A DNA stretch of 64,000 nucleotides from Flavobacteriaceae bacterium. GTDB lineage: Bacteria; Bacteroidota; Bacteroidia; Flavobacteriales; Flavobacteriaceae. Both the position numbers and the translations under genes were made by a program. How positions within the stretch are numbered: the stretch's first letter is position 1; each line of letters starts with the position of its first letter. Below the pieces are notes generated by a model. It was not told where the DNA came from, did not search any database, and worked only from the letters and a program-made list of their open reading frames with translations. The stretch is from positions 1 through 64,000 of the forward strand of contig JABSPM010000062.1 of assembly GCA_013215095.1 (NCBI GenBank), written 5' to 3'. Below are positions 37,931 through 59,410 of the stretch, in pieces.

Positions 37931-39268
37931 TTATTTATCAATAATTACTGTTCTTGATAAGCTTGACCCATTAGCTAAAAACTTAACTATGTACACTCCC
38001 GAATAAACAGTCTGTATGTCAAAAAAACCAATAGTTTGTCCTTTATTTATTTTCTTTTTTTGAATTAGTTTTCCCTGAGCATCTATTAATTCAATCTCAA
38101 TATCTTGATTATTTATGCCACCAATTTGAATATTAATAAGGTCATAAGATGGATTTGGAAATATTTTGATATTTATAGTATTAACATCGGTGCCTATCGT
38201 TGATAATGCACTATCATATATTGTTGTATTCTCGTCCACAGAACTCACCTCTCTATCTTGATACACACCATAAAAAGTAGGTCCAACTGCATAAGGGTAT
38301 GCTGAATTCCAATTTTCATCTACAGTAGCAAAATAACAATAGATACCATTAGGATACTCTGGTGTAACACAAAATCGACCATTGTGTTCATCTAAATAAT
38401 CAGATTGACCACTATGATCTATATATTCATAATCTTCTCTAAATGTTCCCAGTGGCCATGTTGTTTCGGACGGAACCGATCCTGTGCCGCGAGTTGTTTT
38501 TAATTCATAACTCGATTTTATTCTAACAATCTCTCCTGTACCATCTGTATTTGCATACCCATAAGCTCCATAAACTGGAAAGCCGTCATAAGCAAAACCA
38601 ATTAGTGGAGAATGTTGCATTGCATCTATGGTATATAATCCGTCTGCATCATAAAGGTTGCATATCGTAGAAATAACATTTAAATCTAAATCAAATGCTG
38701 ATGGATTTTGATGATGATGGTAATTGCCATCTGCTGGATGACCTTTAGAGCAGTCAAATCCAGACATTTCGGCAAGAACAGCATCTCTATTCCAATCCAT
38801 TGTAACTCCTCCTGGGCACGGTGAATTTCCTGGTCCTCCACACAGAGAATTACTTGATGGATCCCAGGCTACGCCATCACTATAATCAAATAAAGCAACA
38901 CCGTTTATAAACACGCCTATATTACCCATTGTGGTTGGGGTTGAAGTGCCTGTGTTTTGAGTAGGGTTTAAAGGAAATTTAAAAATAGCATCTTGATCTT
39001 CTGCTTGAGACGGATTTCCATCTTGAAATGGTCCAGTTGGATAAGCTGGAATTCCTTTAGTGTGTATGAATACATTATTTGTAGAATATTCTACCAATTG
39101 ACAATTTACCAATATATTATTGGGAATGGTTGTTGAGTTTCCAGACATATAATAAGATCCTGTCGTGGTGGTGTTTTGCAACCAAGTAGTTATTGCTGGA
39201 TTAGTTTGAGCATTTAAGCTTAAAAAATTGCCCAGAATACACAATGAAAATAAAAATACAATACGCAT
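37931..39268 (-). CDS. Secreted YHYH-domain protein with type IX sorting domain
   Basis: The 445-residue protein has a signal peptide (MRIVFLFSLCILGNFLSLNA). The YHYH domain covers about 70-340, with the His cluster GNYHHHQNPSAFD (181-193), the Cys pair in LCGGPGNSPCPGG and GFAYDGFPVYGAYGY. The last 75 residues are a Por secretion C-terminal domain (FPNPSYDLINIQIGG, SGVYIVKFLANG). It is exported through the outer membrane and attached to the surface or released. The YHYH family is uncharacterised, but its His-rich loop suggests metal binding. It is the last gene of the operon with MbnP-like and peroxidase genes. Confidence 0.88.
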   Translation of the reverse strand: MRIVFLFSLCILGNFLSLNAQTNPAITTWLQNTTTTGSYYMSGNSTTIPNNILVNCQLVEYSTNNVFIHTKGIPAYPTGPFQDGNPSQAEDQDAIFKFPLNPTQNTGTSTPTTMGNIGVFINGVALFDYSDGVAWDPSSNSLCGGPGNSPCPGGVTMDWNRDAVLAEMSGFDCSKGHPADGNYHHHQNPSAFDLDLNVISTICNLYDADGLYTIDAMQHSPLIGFAYDGFPVYGAYGYANTDGTGEIVRIKSSYELKTTRGTGSVPSETTWPLGTFREDYEYIDHSGQSDYLDEHNGRFCVTPEYPNGIYCYFATVDENWNSAYPYAVGPTFYGVYQDREVSSVDENTTIYDSALSTIGTDVNTINIKIFPNPSYDLINIQIGGINNQDIEIELIDAQGKLIQKKKINKGQTIGFFDIQTVYSGVYIVKFLANGSSLSRTVIIDK

Positions 39269-39314
39269 ATGATTTTTTTTAGTTATTCATAGTTATTTAG
39301 ACGACATATAAAAT

Positions 39315-40346
39315 TCATTCCTTCGTTTCAATTGATATTTTTTTGAACTGATGTTTTTTGTTGAATACAAACTCTTTATCATTGAGTGTTAGCAAAAAGG
39401 CAATTAGGTCTACTTTTTCGTTTGAAGTTAACTTTATTGGGAGTTTCAAAGCAGGAGAAAGCCTGTCCGAATTTTCAATATTTGAAGTATAGTGATCTAT
39501 TGCTTCTTTTAGTGTTGCAAATCTCCCGTCGTGCATGTATGGGTAAGTGTATGACAAATTCCTCAAACTAGGCACTTTAAATTTATTTTTATCTTCGGGG
39601 TTTTGAGTGATACTATACCGCCCTAAATCATTAAGTGATGGGTCAACGGGTAATGCATTAGTTTCAAACTTGAAATTGGAGAACAAAGGCTCGGTGTGAC
39701 ATATTGCACAATTTTTTTTAAATAGTTGATGCCCATTTTTTTCCTGATCTGAAAACACGTCTTTACCCAACATCACTTGATCGTACTTTGCACTTGCCGA
39801 AACAAGTGTAAGCTGAAATTGAGACAAGGATTTTAATATTTTTGATGTGTTAATGATGGAATCTTGAAAGGCAATAAAAAATAACGTTTTATACTCTTCT
39901 GAAGCATTGAGCTTCTCAATAACATCATTAATAGTACTTCCCATTTCACTAGGATGTGTTATCGGCGCTAAAGCTTGCATATCCAAATGATTGACAGCAC
40001 CATCCCACATAAATGATTTTTGCCAAGCTAAATTAAATAAAGCAGGTGCATTTCTGTTGCCAATAGAGTCAAATATTCCATGACTCAAATCGTGGTCAGT
40101 ATGTGCAAATGCATTAAAAGGAGAATGACAAGACGCACAAGAAACACTATTGTTTGCAGAAAGTAAAGGGTCATAAAATAATAATCTTCCTAATTCTATT
40201 TTATTACTATCCAGTGGATTTTTCTGAAAATCATAAGTAGGTTGAGGAAAATATTGGGGTGGGTTAAAGAAGTAAGTATTCTTGATGATATCAAAAGACA
40301 ACAAAGCAAATATTGATAAAGTAAAAAGAAGTTTTGTTTTCTTCAT
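39315..40346 (-). CDS. Di-haem cytochrome c peroxidase, MbnH/MauG-like
   Basis: The protein has 343 residues with an N-terminal export signal. Two covalent haem sites are present: CASCH (70-74) and CAICH (213-217). Surrounding blocks IELGRLLFYDPLLSANNSVS, GNRNAPALFNLAW and YTYPYMHDGRFATLKEAIDH match bacterial CcP/MauG enzymes in the periplasm. It begins exactly where the MbnP-like gene ends. In methanotrophs MbnH, a relative of this enzyme, oxidises a Trp of MbnP to kynurenine, so this pair may do the same. A simple H2O2-removing peroxidase is the alternative. Confidence 0.9.
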   Translation of the reverse strand: MKKTKLLFTLSIFALLSFDIIKNTYFFNPPQYFPQPTYDFQKNPLDSNKIELGRLLFYDPLLSANNSVSCASCHSPFNAFAHTDHDLSHGIFDSIGNRNAPALFNLAWQKSFMWDGAVNHLDMQALAPITHPSEMGSTINDVIEKLNASEEYKTLFFIAFQDSIINTSKILKSLSQFQLTLVSASAKYDQVMLGKDVFSDQEKNGHQLFKKNCAICHTEPLFSNFKFETNALPVDPSLNDLGRYSITQNPEDKNKFKVPSLRNLSYTYPYMHDGRFATLKEAIDHYTSNIENSDRLSPALKLPIKLTSNEKVDLIAFLLTLNDKEFVFNKKHQFKKISIETKE

Positions 40347-41018
40347 TTAAGGAACCTGTTTAAAAAGTAACTGCAATTTATTACTAATTCGTATTGCTTT
40401 ATCACTAGGTGACATTACATTATAAACTTCTGATACATCTATTTCTTCAAATAATTTATTTAACTGAATATATATTTGTCTAGGGTGGCTTTTATTGAGT
40501 TTTAAGCTCACTTTTCTTAAGGTATTAAAAGGAGGCAAATAGCCACCTATATGCCAATAAAATTTATTTTTCCTCCCTGGACAACGACTTGATGTACCGT
40601 CTAATTTAAAGTTGATATAGCCACTCTGCCAGGTCCAATACATTCCTTTACTAGGATCTAAATCACCTTCATATACCCCAGAAACATTGGTCAGGCTATC
40701 TACACCAATATTAAATCGCAATTCATCAAATCTAAAAAACTTATGTTCTGAAATATAATAGGTACTGCTATCTGTGGCGTCTATTAAGTGCGCTCTTTTT
40801 CTGGAAACATGTACTAATGAATCATTTTTGTAATATTTTAAGTTGGTAATATAGCATTTAAAACTATTTATCTTTAGCGTATCAGTTTTAAACAGATAGG
40901 TCTTGTTTATTACTAAATTTTCTGTCTCAAATTTTGGTTGAAAAATAATGTTTAGAGCCTCTTGTCCAAATGTTAGAGGTCCAATTAAAAACAAGAAAAT
41001 AAAAATCAATATTTTCAT
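40347..41018 (-). CDS. MbnP-like periplasmic protein
   Basis: This 223-residue protein has a signal peptide MKILIFIFLFLIGPLTFGQ. The MbnP-like domain covers the rest: FNIGVDSLTNVSGVYEGDLD, then GMYWTWQSGYINFKLDG with the conserved Trp pair (128 and 130), and FYWHIGGYLPPFNTLRKVSL. In the methanotroph system a Trp in MbnP is converted to kynurenine and contributes to a copper site. Here the gene is directly followed by the di-haem enzyme and overlaps the Spy-like gene by 4 nt. A copper-binding role is inferred from family and context. Confidence 0.87.
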   Translation of the reverse strand: MKILIFIFLFLIGPLTFGQEALNIIFQPKFETENLVINKTYLFKTDTLKINSFKCYITNLKYYKNDSLVHVSRKRAHLIDATDSSTYYISEHKFFRFDELRFNIGVDSLTNVSGVYEGDLDPSKGMYWTWQSGYINFKLDGTSSRCPGRKNKFYWHIGGYLPPFNTLRKVSLKLNKSHPRQIYIQLNKLFEEIDVSEVYNVMSPSDKAIRISNKLQLLFKQVP

Positions 41019-41476
41019 TTAAATTGAATTTTTTCACGATGTTTTTTATTACTAAATATACGTTCTAACTCATCAACCAATTCATTAAATTTCTTTATTT
41101 GAAGAGAATTACAAATTGATTTAATGTCTTTAAAATGATTGAAATGAATAGTTTCTATTTGTTTTTGAATGCTACCAATTTTGGAGGTTAGTGAATCGAC
41201 ATGTATTTTGTTACTGTCGTTATGGAGTAAGCTGTAAAGTTCTTTTTTTAATTGAATTATGCTATTATCTTTTGTTTTAATATCTTTTTTATGCTGGTCA
41301 ATCAATAGCTCGTAGTCAACAATTTGTTGTTTATCAAGATTTAACTTTTCTATTATTATAGATTTTGGAACATCATCAGAACGTTTATGTTTTTTTGTTA
41401 TGACAAAAAATAAGGTTAAAAAATTGCTCATTAGCAGTAAACCTATAATAAGCAGATAAAAATATTTTCTATTCAT
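41015..41476 (-). CDS. Periplasmic Spy/CnrX-like heavy-metal-sensor family protein
   Basis: This 153-residue protein has one N-terminal membrane anchor (YFYLLIIGLLLMSNFLTLFF). The rest is a long helical periplasmic domain: LNLDKQQIVDYELLIDQHKK, LKKELYSLLHNDS, FNHFKDIKSICNSLQIKKFN. This is the four-helix hairpin of the Spy/CpxP/ZraP/CnrX superfamily. It overlaps the preceding and following genes by a few bases. The order sigma, membrane protein, CnrX-like mirrors cnrH-cnrY-cnrX, suggesting it senses a metal and controls sigma release. Its metal ligands are not obvious. Confidence 0.8.
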   Translation of the reverse strand: MNRKYFYLLIIGLLLMSNFLTLFFVITKKHKRSDDVPKSIIIEKLNLDKQQIVDYELLIDQHKKDIKTKDNSIIQLKKELYSLLHNDSNKIHVDSLTSKIGSIQKQIETIHFNHFKDIKSICNSLQIKKFNELVDELERIFSNKKHREKIQFK

Positions 41477-41735
41477 AATAAAATAAATTATTATTTTTTG
41501 GTATTAACTCTATCCTGTTGTTACCGTATTCTTGGGATTTAGAAAAACTATTGATAAAATACAATTGTGATATAAACAATCCCATAACCAGAGTAGCAGC
41601 AATAATTACTTTATACAACGGAACAAAACGACCTTTATCATTATAAAGGCGTTCTTCTATCTTTTTATAAAGTAAATTTGAAGTCTTTACAGGTTTTATA
41701 TTTTTTAGTGTGTCTAAAGTATCTTGTTCCATCAT
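41469..41735 (-). CDS. Small single-pass membrane protein, candidate anti-sigma factor
   Basis: The protein has 88 residues (the second Met at 41732 is an alternative start). An N-terminal cytoplasmic segment of about 43 residues, with charged helices (LLYKKIEERLYNDKGRFVPL), precedes one membrane helix (VIIAATLVMGLFISQLYFIN). A short periplasmic tail follows. It has no zinc-binding ZAS motif. Its position right after an ECF sigma gene and before a CnrX-like gene makes it the likely anti-sigma, comparable in layout to CnrY. This is inference, because the sequence itself is not diagnostic. Confidence 0.6.
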   Translation of the reverse strand: MMEQDTLDTLKNIKPVKTSNLLYKKIEERLYNDKGRFVPLYKVIIAATLVMGLFISQLYFINSFSKSQEYGNNRIELIPKNNNLFYYE

Positions 41736-41770
41736 TAATTGGACGATTATTTAATTAAATTCCTTCGCTA

Positions 41771-42292
41771 TTAAAGTGATTTTTTTAAATTTATTTTTGC
41801 GCGTTGAAACAAAGAATCCACAGATTTTACACTCAATTTCATGATTTCCGCTACTTTTTTTTGAGACAGACCTTCAATTTTTAATAGAATAATTACCGTT
41901 TTTTGATTTCCTTTAAGTTGGTAAATTTTTTGCATTAAACGTTTTAGACTTTCATCCTGCTCCATAAGAATTCCAGGATGATCAAAATCGGGTAAAAGAT
42001 GGTCTTCATTCATCTTATCATTACCAAGTAGTGAAGTAATAAAACCTCGTCTTTTACGTTTTTTATGCTTAATAAAATCAAGCGATTGATTAACTGTAAT
42101 GCGATAAATCCACGTTTTAATAGTAGCTTCATTTCTAAAGCTATCTATTTTGTAATAAATTTTAACAAAAACATCTTGTGTTATTTCTTCGGCATCTTGG
42201 ACGTTTTGACTATATTGAAGTGATAAATTAAACACAAGATCTTTGTATTTATCGTAAATTTCATCAAATATTTGTGTATTTATTATATTCAA
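41771..42292 (-). CDS. ECF-type RNA polymerase sigma factor
   Basis: The protein has 173 residues. Region 2 is LVFNLSLQYSQNVQDAEEIT followed by QDVFVKIYYKIDSFRNEATI and TWIYRITVNQSLDFIKHKKR. Region 4 is LKGNQKTVIILLKIEGLSQK with KVAEIMKLSVKSVDSLFQRA. The only usable start is TTG at 42290-42292, since no ATG occurs in frame before region 2, so translation may be deliberately weak. It heads a six-gene leftward operon that ends with the YHYH gene and presumably activates it. Confidence 0.88.
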   Translation of the reverse strand: MNIINTQIFDEIYDKYKDLVFNLSLQYSQNVQDAEEITQDVFVKIYYKIDSFRNEATIKTWIYRITVNQSLDFIKHKKRKRRGFITSLLGNDKMNEDHLLPDFDHPGILMEQDESLKRLMQKIYQLKGNQKTVIILLKIEGLSQKKVAEIMKLSVKSVDSLFQRAKINLKKSL

Positions 42293-55756: not shown

Positions 55757-58123
55757 ATGAAAAAAATATGCATTGGAGTTTTCCTTTGTATGTTTTGCTT
55801 ATGGAAGCTATCAGCACAACAAACATTTCGTATTAGTGGCTATGTCGTTGACAAACAATCGGAAACACCATTACAAGATGCCCTTGTTAAAGTAGCTAAC
55901 AATAAATATACAACAACTAACGATAAAGGCTATTTTAGTCTAGATAAATTGACAACTGGGACTTATCAACTCCAAGTAATATTATTGGGTCATAAGGATT
56001 ATTTTATAGAAATAACACTTCGTAGTAATCAGACTATTTACATTGCTTTAGAGGAAGAATTGAGTACCTTGTCTGAGGTTGTTCTTCATAGCAAAACTCA
56101 TCAAAGAGAAGCTAAAGAAACGGCAATAGTTTCTGAAGAAATCAATGAAACTTTTCTCGAGGAAAACAGAGAAAATAGTTTAATGCAGACCTTAAATAAA
56201 ATCGCTGGAGTTAGTTCAATTACAATTGGTTCGGGGCAATCTAAACCAGTAATTAGGGGACTAGGTTTTAACAGGGTAGCTGTTATTCAAAAAGGCATTA
56301 AACATGAAGCCCAACAATGGGGATCAGATCATGGACTTGAAATTGATCAATATGGCATTGATGAAATTCAAATTATAAAAGGCCCTGCGTCTTTAATGTA
56401 TGGTTCTGATGCTATTGCTGGCGTGGTAAATATTAGGCAAGATAAAATTCCAGAAAAAAACACATTTTCTGGAGAAATTAATTTGTTAGCAGAAACCAAC
56501 AATGATTTATTTGGTACTTCTGTAGGCATGCAATCGAGAAAAAACAAATGGTATTATAATGGGCGTTTAACATATAGAGATTATGCAGATTATAAGGTCC
56601 CTACAGATAGCATTAGGTATGACAATAATGTTTTTGAGTTGCATGACAATAATCTAAGAAACACGGCAGGAAAAGAGGCTAATGCTAGTTTTGGATTTGG
56701 ATATATATCCAATAAATTCAAAACCGAAACCTATATAAGTAATGTGCATGCTAAAACTGGTTTTTTTGCCAATGCGCATGGCTTTGAAGTAAGGCTTTCT
56801 GATATTGATTATGATGCATCCAACAGGGATATTGATTTGCCTTATCATAAGTTAAATCACATCAAACTAATTAACAATAGTAGTTTTATTTTTGATAAGC
56901 ATATCTTAAAATTTGGTTTAGGTTTTCAGAATAATTTAAGAGAAGAATATTCAGAACCAACGCCACATGGTTTTATGCCAAAACCCAGCAGTACTAAAGA
57001 ACGAAAATTCAATAAAAGCACATATATATTGAATGTTAAAGATGAGTTTGTACTAAATCATCATGATATTGTTATTGGCGCAAATACGGAATATCAAAAC
57101 AATCGTATTGGAGGATGGGGATTCTTAATTCCGGAGTATAAACGGTTTACCTCAGGAATATTTGTTTATGATAAATATATGGTCAAAGAGAATTTGTTTT
57201 TACAAGCCGGTTTGAGATATGATTTTGGCGTTGTAGATACTGTATCTTATTTCGATTGGTTTCAATCTGAAGTAAATAATGAAAATGGAACAACTTCTTC
57301 TCTATTCATACAAAGAGCTAAAGATCAAACATCTTATTTTTATAACACCAGTGCTTCCCTTGGTCTAAGTTATATTAGAGATAAGACATCTTATAAGCTT
57401 AATGTGGGAAAGAGTTTTCGTGTACCATTAGCCAACGAACTAGCTTCGAATGGTGTTAATTATCATATGTTTAGATATGAAAAAGGAAATCCAGACTTAG
57501 ATGCTGAATCTTCATATCAAATTGATGCACAAGTTACTTATGAAGCGAACAGTATAAACGTTTCGGTTACACCTTTTGTCAACTTCTTTGATAATTTTAT
57601 TTACTTAAACCCAACGTCAAATTATTACGAGACGCTTCAAATTTATGATTATACACAAACGCAAGTTTTCCGTTTTGGTGGAGAAATTAATGTAAATATT
57701 CAACCTTGGGAAGCATTGCAAGTTAATGCTTCGATTGAATATGTATATGGGAGACAAACCAGTGGTGTAAAAAAAGGCTTTGCATTACCCTTTTCGCCTC
57801 CCCTATCCTCATTTTTAAGTGTTACTTATGCGCTTAAAGATATGGCATGGTTTTTAAAGCCTCAGTTTAAAGCAGATTTTAGACTAACGGCAAAACAAGA
57901 AGATATTGTACCTCCAGAAGAATATACATCTGGGTATAATGTGCTTGGGGTTTCATTTATTTCTGAATTTGAAATGTTCAATTCCAAAAATAGATCGCAA
58001 TTGCGTATAAAAGTGAATAATGTGTTTGATACCAAATATTTTGATCATACCAGTTTCTATCGCTTGATTGATGTTCCTGAAGCTGGGCGAAACTTATCTG
58101 TATCCTTAACAATTCCATTCTAA
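55757..58123 (+). CDS. TonB-dependent outer-membrane receptor, probable metal/metallophore type
   Basis: The 788-residue receptor has signal peptide MKKICIGVFLCMFCLWKLSA. A CarboxypepD_reg-like domain covers about 25-105 and a plug about 115-230 (KPVIRGLGFNRVAVIQKGIK, IIKGPASLMYGSDAIAGVVN). A 22-strand barrel ends in the aromatic strand NLSVSLTIPF. It has the vitamin B12/zinc-like plug features EAQQWGSDHGLEID and EVRLSDIDYDA. Together with a His-rich upstream protein and two His/Asp-rich lipoproteins downstream, it likely imports a divalent metal such as zinc. The ligand is inferred, not proven. Confidence 0.9.
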   Translation: MKKICIGVFLCMFCLWKLSAQQTFRISGYVVDKQSETPLQDALVKVANNKYTTTNDKGYFSLDKLTTGTYQLQVILLGHKDYFIEITLRSNQTIYIALEEELSTLSEVVLHSKTHQREAKETAIVSEEINETFLEENRENSLMQTLNKIAGVSSITIGSGQSKPVIRGLGFNRVAVIQKGIKHEAQQWGSDHGLEIDQYGIDEIQIIKGPASLMYGSDAIAGVVNIRQDKIPEKNTFSGEINLLAETNNDLFGTSVGMQSRKNKWYYNGRLTYRDYADYKVPTDSIRYDNNVFELHDNNLRNTAGKEANASFGFGYISNKFKTETYISNVHAKTGFFANAHGFEVRLSDIDYDASNRDIDLPYHKLNHIKLINNSSFIFDKHILKFGLGFQNNLREEYSEPTPHGFMPKPSSTKERKFNKSTYILNVKDEFVLNHHDIVIGANTEYQNNRIGGWGFLIPEYKRFTSGIFVYDKYMVKENLFLQAGLRYDFGVVDTVSYFDWFQSEVNNENGTTSSLFIQRAKDQTSYFYNTSASLGLSYIRDKTSYKLNVGKSFRVPLANELASNGVNYHMFRYEKGNPDLDAESSYQIDAQVTYEANSINVSVTPFVNFFDNFIYLNPTSNYYETLQIYDYTQTQVFRFGGEINVNIQPWEALQVNASIEYVYGRQTSGVKKGFALPFSPPLSSFLSVTYALKDMAWFLKPQFKADFRLTAKQEDIVPPEEYTSGYNVLGVSFISEFEMFNSKNRSQLRIKVNNVFDTKYFDHTSFYRLIDVPEAGRNLSVSLTIPF

Positions 58124-58145
58124 TAAAACATGAAAAATATAACTT

Positions 58146-58628
58146 ATGACTATTAGTTTAAAACCAATGATTTTAGTAGTGCTAATGCTGTGCTTTATTA
58201 CAACATCATGCAGTAGTGATGATGACAACACAGACACTACAAAACCAACAATAACAATAAATTATGATGGTGGTTTCCCTCAGGCTTGCGAAGCATTAGA
58301 AAGAGGACAAACCTATACATTCAAAGCTCAGGTAGCAGACAATGTTGCTTTGGCATCATATAGCCTAGACATTCATCATAACTTTGACCATCATACCCAT
58401 GACGATCAGATAGGTGACTGTGAATTTCATGACGATAAAACTCCCATAAATCCTTTTTTGGTATTAGAGAATTATAGTATCTCTGGAGAGCAACAATCCT
58501 ATGAAATTGCATTAGAAATTAGTATCCCAAATGATGTTGATACAGGGGATTATCACTGTGAATATTCTGTTATAGATAAAACAGGATGGCGAAGTCAAAC
58601 AAGTATTGACATAACAATTATAGAATAA
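58146..58628 (+). CDS. DUF4625 lipoprotein with His-rich motif
   Basis: The 160-residue lipoprotein has CFITTSC (Cys22) followed by SSDDDN, an acidic stretch like the Bacteroidota lipoprotein export signal for the cell surface. The single DUF4625 beta-sandwich has SLDIHHNFDHHTHDDQIGDC with many histidines and acidic residues facing one loop. This suggests divalent metal capture next to the TonB receptor 22 nt upstream. No enzyme motif is present. Confidence 0.82.
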   Translation: MTISLKPMILVVLMLCFITTSCSSDDDNTDTTKPTITINYDGGFPQACEALERGQTYTFKAQVADNVALASYSLDIHHNFDHHTHDDQIGDCEFHDDKTPINPFLVLENYSISGEQQSYEIALEISIPNDVDTGDYHCEYSVIDKTGWRSQTSIDITIIE

Positions 58629-58657
58629 TTAAAATATAAAATATTTAAAAATATAAA

Positions 58658-59410
58658 ATGAAAAATTTAGCAAACCTTAGACATAACCTAGCATGCATTA
58701 TGCTATTCATTTTTGGACTCACTATAAACTCTTGTACTAGCGACGATGAGGATAATAATGTATTAAGTGCTCCAGTAATTAATACAGAAGATATAGAAAT
58801 AGGTCATGACAATTCACATTCTGCAACTCCAGGAACCGAACTTCATCTCGATGTAGAAATAGAAGCTGAAGGCAAAATAAGTACAATAGCAATAGAGCTT
58901 CACAAAGAAGATGGTTATGGTGAAGAGTATGAGTATGAATGGACCGAATTTGAAGGTCTACTTAACTTAGATTTCCATGAACACTATGAAATTCCTGCTT
59001 CAGCAACAATTGGAGAATATCATTTTCATTTCGTTGTAACAGATATGGAAGGAAGTCAAACGTCTTATGAAGCTGATTTCAATTTGGTTAATGGTCCTGT
59101 AATTGTTGCTACAGTAATTGGAGAAAACAATAGTCATACAGGTACTCCGGGAGAAGAATTGCATATGGACGTTGAAATAGAAGCTCAAGGAGGAATAAGT
59201 ACAATAGAAATAGAGCTACACAAGGAAGATGGTTCTGATGAAGAATATGAGTATGAGTGGACTTATAGTGGAGAAACAGCTTTAGACTTCCATGAACATT
59301 ATGAAATTCCTGCCAATGCGTCAACAGGAGAATACCATTTCCATTTTGTTGTTACAGACCTCTTAGGTAACCAAACGAGTTACGATGCAGAATTTGAAAT
59401 TGAAAATTAA
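58658..59410 (+). CDS. DUF4625 lipoprotein with two tandem domains
   Basis: The 250-residue lipoprotein has lipobox LTINSC (Cys26) followed by TSDDED, again resembling a surface-export signal. Two DUF4625 domains (about 40-145 and 148-250) are internal duplicates: IELHKEDGYGEEYEYEWT and IELHKEDGSDEEYEYEWT, DFHEHYEIPA and GEYHFHFVVTD occur in both. The histidine and glutamate clusters are repeated, so it could bind twice the metal. It is the third member of the receptor operon. Confidence 0.82.
   Translation: MKNLANLRHNLACIMLFIFGLTINSCTSDDEDNNVLSAPVINTEDIEIGHDNSHSATPGTELHLDVEIEAEGKISTIAIELHKEDGYGEEYEYEWTEFEGLLNLDFHEHYEIPASATIGEYHFHFVVTDMEGSQTSYEADFNLVNGPVIVATVIGENNSHTGTPGEELHMDVEIEAQGGISTIEIELHKEDGSDEEYEYEWTYSGETALDFHEHYEIPANASTGEYHFHFVVTDLLGNQTSYDAEFEIEN

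Follow-up and report, generated by a model that had tools for sequence, protein, structure and literature searches.

Among well-known regulatory systems, CnrYXH (gene order CnrY-X-H) and NccYXH of Cupriavidus metallidurans nickel/cobalt resistance combine an extracytoplasmic function (ECF) sigma factor, a small single-pass protein and a membrane-anchored four-helix hairpin protein, CnrX and NccX being the nickel/cobalt sensors. A second described system is the MbnP/MbnH pair ("mysterious partners", TIGR04052/TIGR04039); PMC3621798 already reports the pair, how widely it is distributed and that it occurs in Methylosinus near ECF/FecR genes, and the MbnI/MbnR/MbnT-linked pairs of that genus lie near an ECF sigma gene together with a FecR-type sensor (PF04773) and a TonB receptor. 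In CorA/CorB and MopE/SACCP of methanotrophs (PMC3912023), a copper protein of the cell surface that carries an oxidised Trp is likewise encoded beside a di-haem gene. Relatives of these systems meet in a window of 64,000 nucleotides (positions 1 to 64,000 of contig JABSPM010000062.1, Flavobacteriaceae bacterium, assembly GCA_013215095.1), where six minus-strand genes at 37931–42292 encode an ECF sigma factor, an 88-residue protein, a CnrX-like protein, MbnP, an MbnH-type di-haem enzyme and a YHYH protein. It appears fairly probable that the six genes constitute one operon for copper handling outside the cytoplasm, which is controlled by a CnrX-type metal-sensing switch and has MbnP, MbnH and the YHYH protein as its outputs. 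The six-gene unit recurs across Bacteroidota.

The genes are transcribed in the order given above, and their positions are those of the first-pass annotation of this stretch. The sigma factor gene (41771–42292; 173 residues, TTG start; PF04542, 5.5e-15; PF08281, 3.7e-10) is followed after 35 bp by the 88-residue gene (41469–41735), which overlaps by 8 bp the gene of a CnrX/Spy-like membrane-anchored periplasmic protein of 153 residues, the putative metal sensor (41015–41476). The latter overlaps mbnP (40347–41018; 223 residues; PF20243, 7.6e-40) by 4 bp, mbnP adjoins mbnH (39315–40346; 343 residues; PF03150, 5.9e-52) with 0 bp between them, and 46 bp separate mbnH from the gene of the YHYH protein (37931–39268; 445 residues; PF14240, 5.3e-59), which has a type IX secretion tail (PF18962, 9.5e-12). 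A long same-strand gene upstream (gyrA/parC-like by eye) stops 246 bp short of the sigma gene, and two plus-strand genes lie downstream of the operon. The family assignments of the first-pass annotation are borne out by the Pfam matches, with the caution that the NCBIfam models of MbnP and MbnH are both matched below cut-off; the positions that it gave for Trp128/Trp130 and His184–186 were confirmed. In the proposed scheme, the membrane-anchored CnrX-like protein would sense metal in the periplasm and, by analogy with CnrX-CnrY-CnrH, would act through the small single-pass protein to free the ECF sigma factor, which may then transcribe its own operon. The outputs would be the secreted MbnP with its WxW pair, the di-haem MbnH, which most likely oxidises one of the tryptophans of MbnP, and the YHYH protein, exported by type IX secretion and most likely serving as a further copper-binding part at the surface.

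For a survey of the gene order across Bacteroidota, proposed in the first-pass annotation, 84,980 species genomes were scanned with the MbnP subfamily; the best 80 of at least 557 confirmed relatives were kept, and 79 loci remained after removal of a duplicate (L212, on the same contig as L095). These loci were picked by likeness to the window MbnP, and therefore the fractions below, counted within five genes of MbnP, are no rates for the phylum. The order is conserved in other genomes: all six genes are found on one strand in 22 of the 79 loci, and in 20 of the 54 that have enough sequence on both flanks. The 22 loci include Flavobacterium, Crocinitomicaceae, Cryomorphaceae, Saprospiraceae, Aureispira and Chitinophaga, and many come from metagenome bins. 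Among YHYH loci drawn across the phylum, the complete set was also found in two from other families, L103 of the same class and L109 of the same order; L095 has the six-gene order except for its start, which is lost to the contig edge. The six genes are strictly contiguous, with no other called gene between them, in 17 out of 25 cases (the 22 loci, the window, L103 and L109). The trio of sigma factor, 88-residue protein and sensor is present in 27 of the 68 loci with at least 1.5 kb of upstream sequence, and a YHYH gene lies downstream in 49 of the 61 with at least 3 kb of downstream sequence. Since the six-gene order recurs in many genomes, it is regarded as more than chance.

In the window's own family, PF20243 is present in 98 out of 199 genomes. 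Sixty regions were fetched and read with a simple open reading frame caller (one, L054, yielded no MbnP frame), and 60 readable MbnP loci, including the window, were obtained; 14 more PF20243 places, a part of those listed beyond these regions, were also read. The di-haem gene is the next called gene in 58 of the 60 loci, and MbnP-MbnH-YHYH occurs in four. At least three other settings of the MbnP/di-haem pair were recognised by eye: with a small Cys-containing and a ~330-residue protein, with SufA/SufB-like genes preceded by type IX proteins, and with a TonB-receptor-like gene.

The di-haem protein, which the first-pass annotation had proposed to compare with MbnH, carries two CXXCH haem sites (CASCH at 70–74 and CAICH at 213–217) that are kept in its relatives, and MbnH is its nearest match by sequence in the PDB (6e1c, 4.4e-42). 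In the printed alignments, Tyr286 falls on a Tyr of 6e1c and on a Met of 1iqc. This position is occupied by Tyr in 148 of 157 aligned rows, by Phe in five and by Leu in four; in MauG, a Tyr here is the axial ligand. The matches to 1iqc (7.4e-41) and 3o5c (8.6e-41) nearly equal that to MbnH, as would be expected if the protein were an ordinary H2O2-scavenging cytochrome c peroxidase with MbnP being no substrate and the neighbours forming a loose periplasmic stress cluster. Such an explanation is very improbable, as it is opposed by the Tyr in place of Met at the axial position and by the close coupling of the genes: the di-haem gene lies within five genes downstream of MbnP in 74 of the 79 MbnP-selected loci, and the median MbnP/MbnH gene overlap is 4 bp over 97 pairs.

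The window MbnP passes the PF20243 threshold (137.3 bits; cut-off, 27). Its alignment comprises 47 rows (39 of the 41 trio-linked MbnP rows and eight others; 44 belong to the window subfamily and three come from other settings), in which G105, W128, W130, G133, G141, H156 and G158 are invariant. The Trp pair singled out in the first-pass annotation is accordingly kept as WxW in every row, and WxWxxG[YW] is found in 77 of the 79 MbnP-selected loci. The TIGR04052 model is matched at 1e-3 or better by 46 of the 47 rows (best, 4.3e-16). The single MbnP sequence gave nothing against solved structures at E up to 1; the MbnP profile reached 7l6g only, a "metallo-mystery pair" protein, at an E-value of 0.46, in a match that aligns the window MbnP with the GMxWxWQxG of 7l6g and a His further on. 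As described in PMC3912023, Cu(I) in CorA is bound by H64 and H114, with Kyn62 nearby. While CorA and MopE have Kyn-x-His and a second His at the copper site, the window protein has Trp-x-Trp; with Trp and not His two residues after the first Trp, the MbnP site cannot equal the CorA site, and membership of the CorA/MopE group was rejected. A further difference is that CorA is copper-repressed, whereas a CnrX-type switch predicts induction.

The 88-residue protein has a hydrophobic stretch at approximately residues 40–62, as read from its sequence, and no Pfam match. In its family (36 aligned rows), Ile26 and Tyr86 are kept in at least 90% of the rows. No CnrY chain was matched by sequence, while the size and the single hydrophobic stretch fit a small single-pass anti-sigma factor; because of these two features and its place, the protein is read as a putative anti-sigma factor. 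None of the six operon proteins matches the FecR-type PF04773 at E up to 1. The locus differs from the described MbnP/MbnH pairs in its CnrX-type rather than FecI/FecR-type control and its YHYH partner, in addition to its scores below both NCBIfam cut-offs; compared with the Methylosinus pairs, it has a CnrX-like sensor and, by eye, no receptor-like gene among the adjacent genes. It differs from CnrYXH in the gene order (sigma-88-residue protein-sensor), in lacking most CnrX ligands and in the outputs, which are MbnP, MbnH and YHYH and not an efflux pump.

The window YHYH protein passes the PF14240 threshold (199.9 bits; cut-off, 25); its first motif reads GNYHHHQNP and its second, by eye, GIYCYF. 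The YHYH alignment has 32 rows (27 of the 33 trio-linked YHYH rows and five others), and the structure model of the window protein was too poor for a fold search (mean predicted local distance difference test score, pLDDT, 62.0). Gene order in other genomes connects this family with copper proteins, among them the known copper chaperone SCO1. In L253 and L254, the sigma, 88-residue and sensor genes are followed by a short YHYH gene, MORN_2 and SCO1; L213 has the same series and then mbnP near the contig end, and L247 has the 88-residue, sensor, YHYH and SCO1 genes, with no sigma or MORN gene called. In L065, YHYH-MORN_2-SCO1 is divergent from MbnP-MbnH-YHYH. Twenty further regions were read, 19 of them fetched for YHYH and 18 with a YHYH open reading frame called; in 13 of the 20, a same-strand SCO1 gene comes after YHYH. 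In a motif scan that compared 88 loci of the window MbnP subfamily with 73 other MbnP loci, the latter mostly from the window's family, genes for multicopper oxidase (four loci), SCO1 (three) and CPC-type ATPase (two) were found in the 88 loci and in none of the 73; they sometimes lie several genes from MbnPH, and eight of the nine were confirmed by Pfam.

On account of these SCO1, multicopper oxidase and ATPase neighbours, copper is most likely the metal, with a probability put at a little over one half; that the switch senses a metal of some kind is given roughly four fifths. An operon answering nickel, cobalt or zinc, with MbnP and YHYH serving that metal, is suggested by the nickel/cobalt specificity of CnrX and NccX, and the ligand residues of the sensor leave the metal unsettled. 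This alternative is distinctly unlikely, as two copper proteins, SCO1 and multicopper oxidase, recur among the partners, and the name of the MbnP family and the parallel with CorA/MopE also favour copper. A wider proposal is offered as tentative: YHYH may be a copper-protein family, and the two modules YHYH-MORN-SCO1 and MbnP-MbnH-YHYH may form one extracytoplasmic copper regulon of Bacteroidota under a CnrX-derived copper sensor, in which MbnH would oxidise MbnP and possibly YHYH too.

Other features were recorded in the same regions. Short YHYH proteins mostly carry two YHYH motifs, as against YHHH and YCYF (by eye) in the long protein of the window, and in L274–L284, L287 and L288, SCO1/SenC genes come after short YHYH genes, mostly with MORN_2 between. 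A sulfatase cluster recurs in 13 and a CotH cluster in seven of the 88 loci, according to clustering and to Pfam on some members. Among the sulfatase loci, L166, L200 and L204 have a type IX-tailed sulfatase beside MbnPH-YHYH, and in L200 it shares one frame with a multicopper oxidase.

The AlphaFold model of the window sensor (mean pLDDT, 92.1) predicts an N-terminal helix and a four-helix hairpin. CnrX structures occupy ranks 1–7 in Foldseek (best, 2y39; E-value, 0.011; probability, 1.00) and ranks 1–8 in VIA-align (best, 4wwf_B; 103 residues; root-mean-square deviation, 2.9; Z 11.1, in a range, below about 13, where the aligner cautions that helical bundles may share just a common arrangement). 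Beneath them are a Salmonella VirG-like protein (5io8, 5ihf), NccX (4clv, at ranks 14 and 12 in the two lists), Spy and CpxP; the VirG-like protein comes just under the CnrX rows, over NccX and, by Foldseek, over Spy. Among 40 aligned sensor sequences, including that of the window (L261 yielded no sensor frame), 14 match PF13801 Metal_resist (best, 5.9e-9), the window sensor itself not being one of them; one matches LTXXQ and one the NCBIfam Spy model. The CnrX-like fold is well supported at the level of the predicted model, since CnrX comes first in both programs, the whole domain is covered and Metal_resist is matched by 14 of the 40 sequences, the significance of the matches being moderate. 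The CnrX/Spy-like nature claimed in the first-pass annotation stands as to the fold, and on this ground a switch of the CnrYXH type is well supported, although the ligand pattern of CnrX is for the most part lacking. The CnrX ligands E63 and M123 were taken from PDB titles, and the others are H42, H46 and H119. The end points of the best match (37–140 versus 42–145) would place His114 of the sensor at CnrX 119, residue pairs not being printed. His62 and His114 are nearly invariant among the sensors. His111 is found in 26 of the 36 members of the main MbnP-linked clade, while Thr takes its place in nine of 12 and 10 of 11 members of the other two groups.

Several results weigh against a CnrX-type copper switch at this locus. 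As regards the sensor, no Foldseek match passes an E-value of 0.001, the best Z of 11.1 carries the aligner's caution given above, and the sensor profile by sequence reaches Spy (3oeo; E-value, 0.049) and not CnrX. In the periplasmic part of the window sensor, Met is absent and no His-x3-His pair precedes residue 61, which leaves most CnrX metal ligands without a counterpart. His62, His114 and Cys122 are shared with sensors of other operons and were for that reason rejected as a basis for metal specificity. As regards the outputs, the window MbnP scores 27.3 bits against the TIGR04052 equivalog (cut-off, 140), the di-haem protein scores 214.6 bits against TIGR04039 (1.9e-63; cut-off, 362.85), a loose small type-1-like copper motif is not enriched (5 of the 88 versus 8 of the 73 loci), and neither SCO1 nor an oxidase was noted adjoining the window operon. 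As regards the control, no shared promoter motif was found by dyad counting upstream of 53 sigma genes or by a two-block Gibbs search on 29, the latter giving 8.49 per sequence versus 8.63, 8.08 and 8.40 for shuffled sequences. YHYH is present without a sensor in 25 of the 68 MbnP-selected loci with enough upstream sequence, and among the 60 MbnP loci of the window's family the sigma trio is found in the window only; with better profiles, still no sensor gene appeared in the other loci of this family.

Part of this evidence would suit a switch that responds not to metal but to envelope stress or to proteins that are misfolded or oxidised, with MbnP, MbnH and YHYH forming an oxidative or surface-protein repair response. 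Spy and CpxP, whose relatives sense such stress or damaged protein, have the same fold; among the plausible PDB matches by sequence Spy ranks first, one of the 40 sensors matches the NCBIfam Spy model, and related trios that share the conserved sensor residues precede genes matching none of MbnP, MbnH and YHYH. This explanation is nevertheless unlikely: both fold programs rank CnrX higher than Spy and CpxP, Metal_resist is matched far more often than LTXXQ, SCO1 and multicopper oxidases are linked with the genes of YHYH and MbnPH, and His111 marks the main MbnP-linked clade.

The putative metal-sensing trio is not confined to MbnPH. The sensors belong to a broad family, present in 152 of 390 genomes of the phylum at an E-value of 1e-4. 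In the midpoint-rooted sensor tree, clade 1 contains 35 of the 41 MbnP-linked sensors and one other (support, 0.85), clade 2 contains six MbnP-linked, three YHYH-linked and two other sensors (support, 0.94), and clade 3 contains 12 sensors (support, 0.93), one of which precedes a YHYH gene (L259, found by Pfam) and one an MbnH-like gene without MbnP (L260). The lone sensor of the main clade that is not MbnP-linked (L246) comes from a genome with MbnPH elsewhere. Judged from this breadth and the tree, the trio seems to be a general device of Bacteroidota, one main lineage of which goes with MbnPH. In L260, the trio of sigma factor, small protein and CnrX-like protein stands directly ahead of the MbnH-like gene.

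The MbnP/MbnH pair is known; new are its probable control by a CnrX-type switch across Bacteroidota and the link between YHYH, SCO1 and MbnPH. The first-pass annotation knew of no description of the six-gene combination as one unit, and in agreement with this no text on it was found in a literature search that left most subscription journals outside its reach; within the same limits, no text on the function of YHYH or on a CnrX-type switch governing MbnPH was found, and literature listings on "metallo-mystery pair" and YHYH gave nothing on function. In Bacteroidota, some carriers being isolates, the widespread and puzzling MbnP/MbnH pair gains what is likely a dedicated metal-sensing switch, and in many genomes gene order links the uncharacterised YHYH family with copper proteins. 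The roles of MbnPH outside methanotrophs and of YHYH are made open to simple tests.

Related genes occur elsewhere in the same genome. A second MauG-like di-haem gene on contig 14 (L111) lies beside SusD/SusC-looking genes (by eye), with no MbnP gene near. Two other YHYH genes, on contigs 5 and 86 (L112 and L114), are each followed by the gene of a small secreted-looking protein, and the one on contig 5 matches DUF6702 (24.4 bits; cut-off, 24). By eye, the stretch 55757–59410 of the window holds a TonB-receptor-like gene and then two genes for lipoprotein-like products with many His and acidic residues, possibly a metal uptake set.

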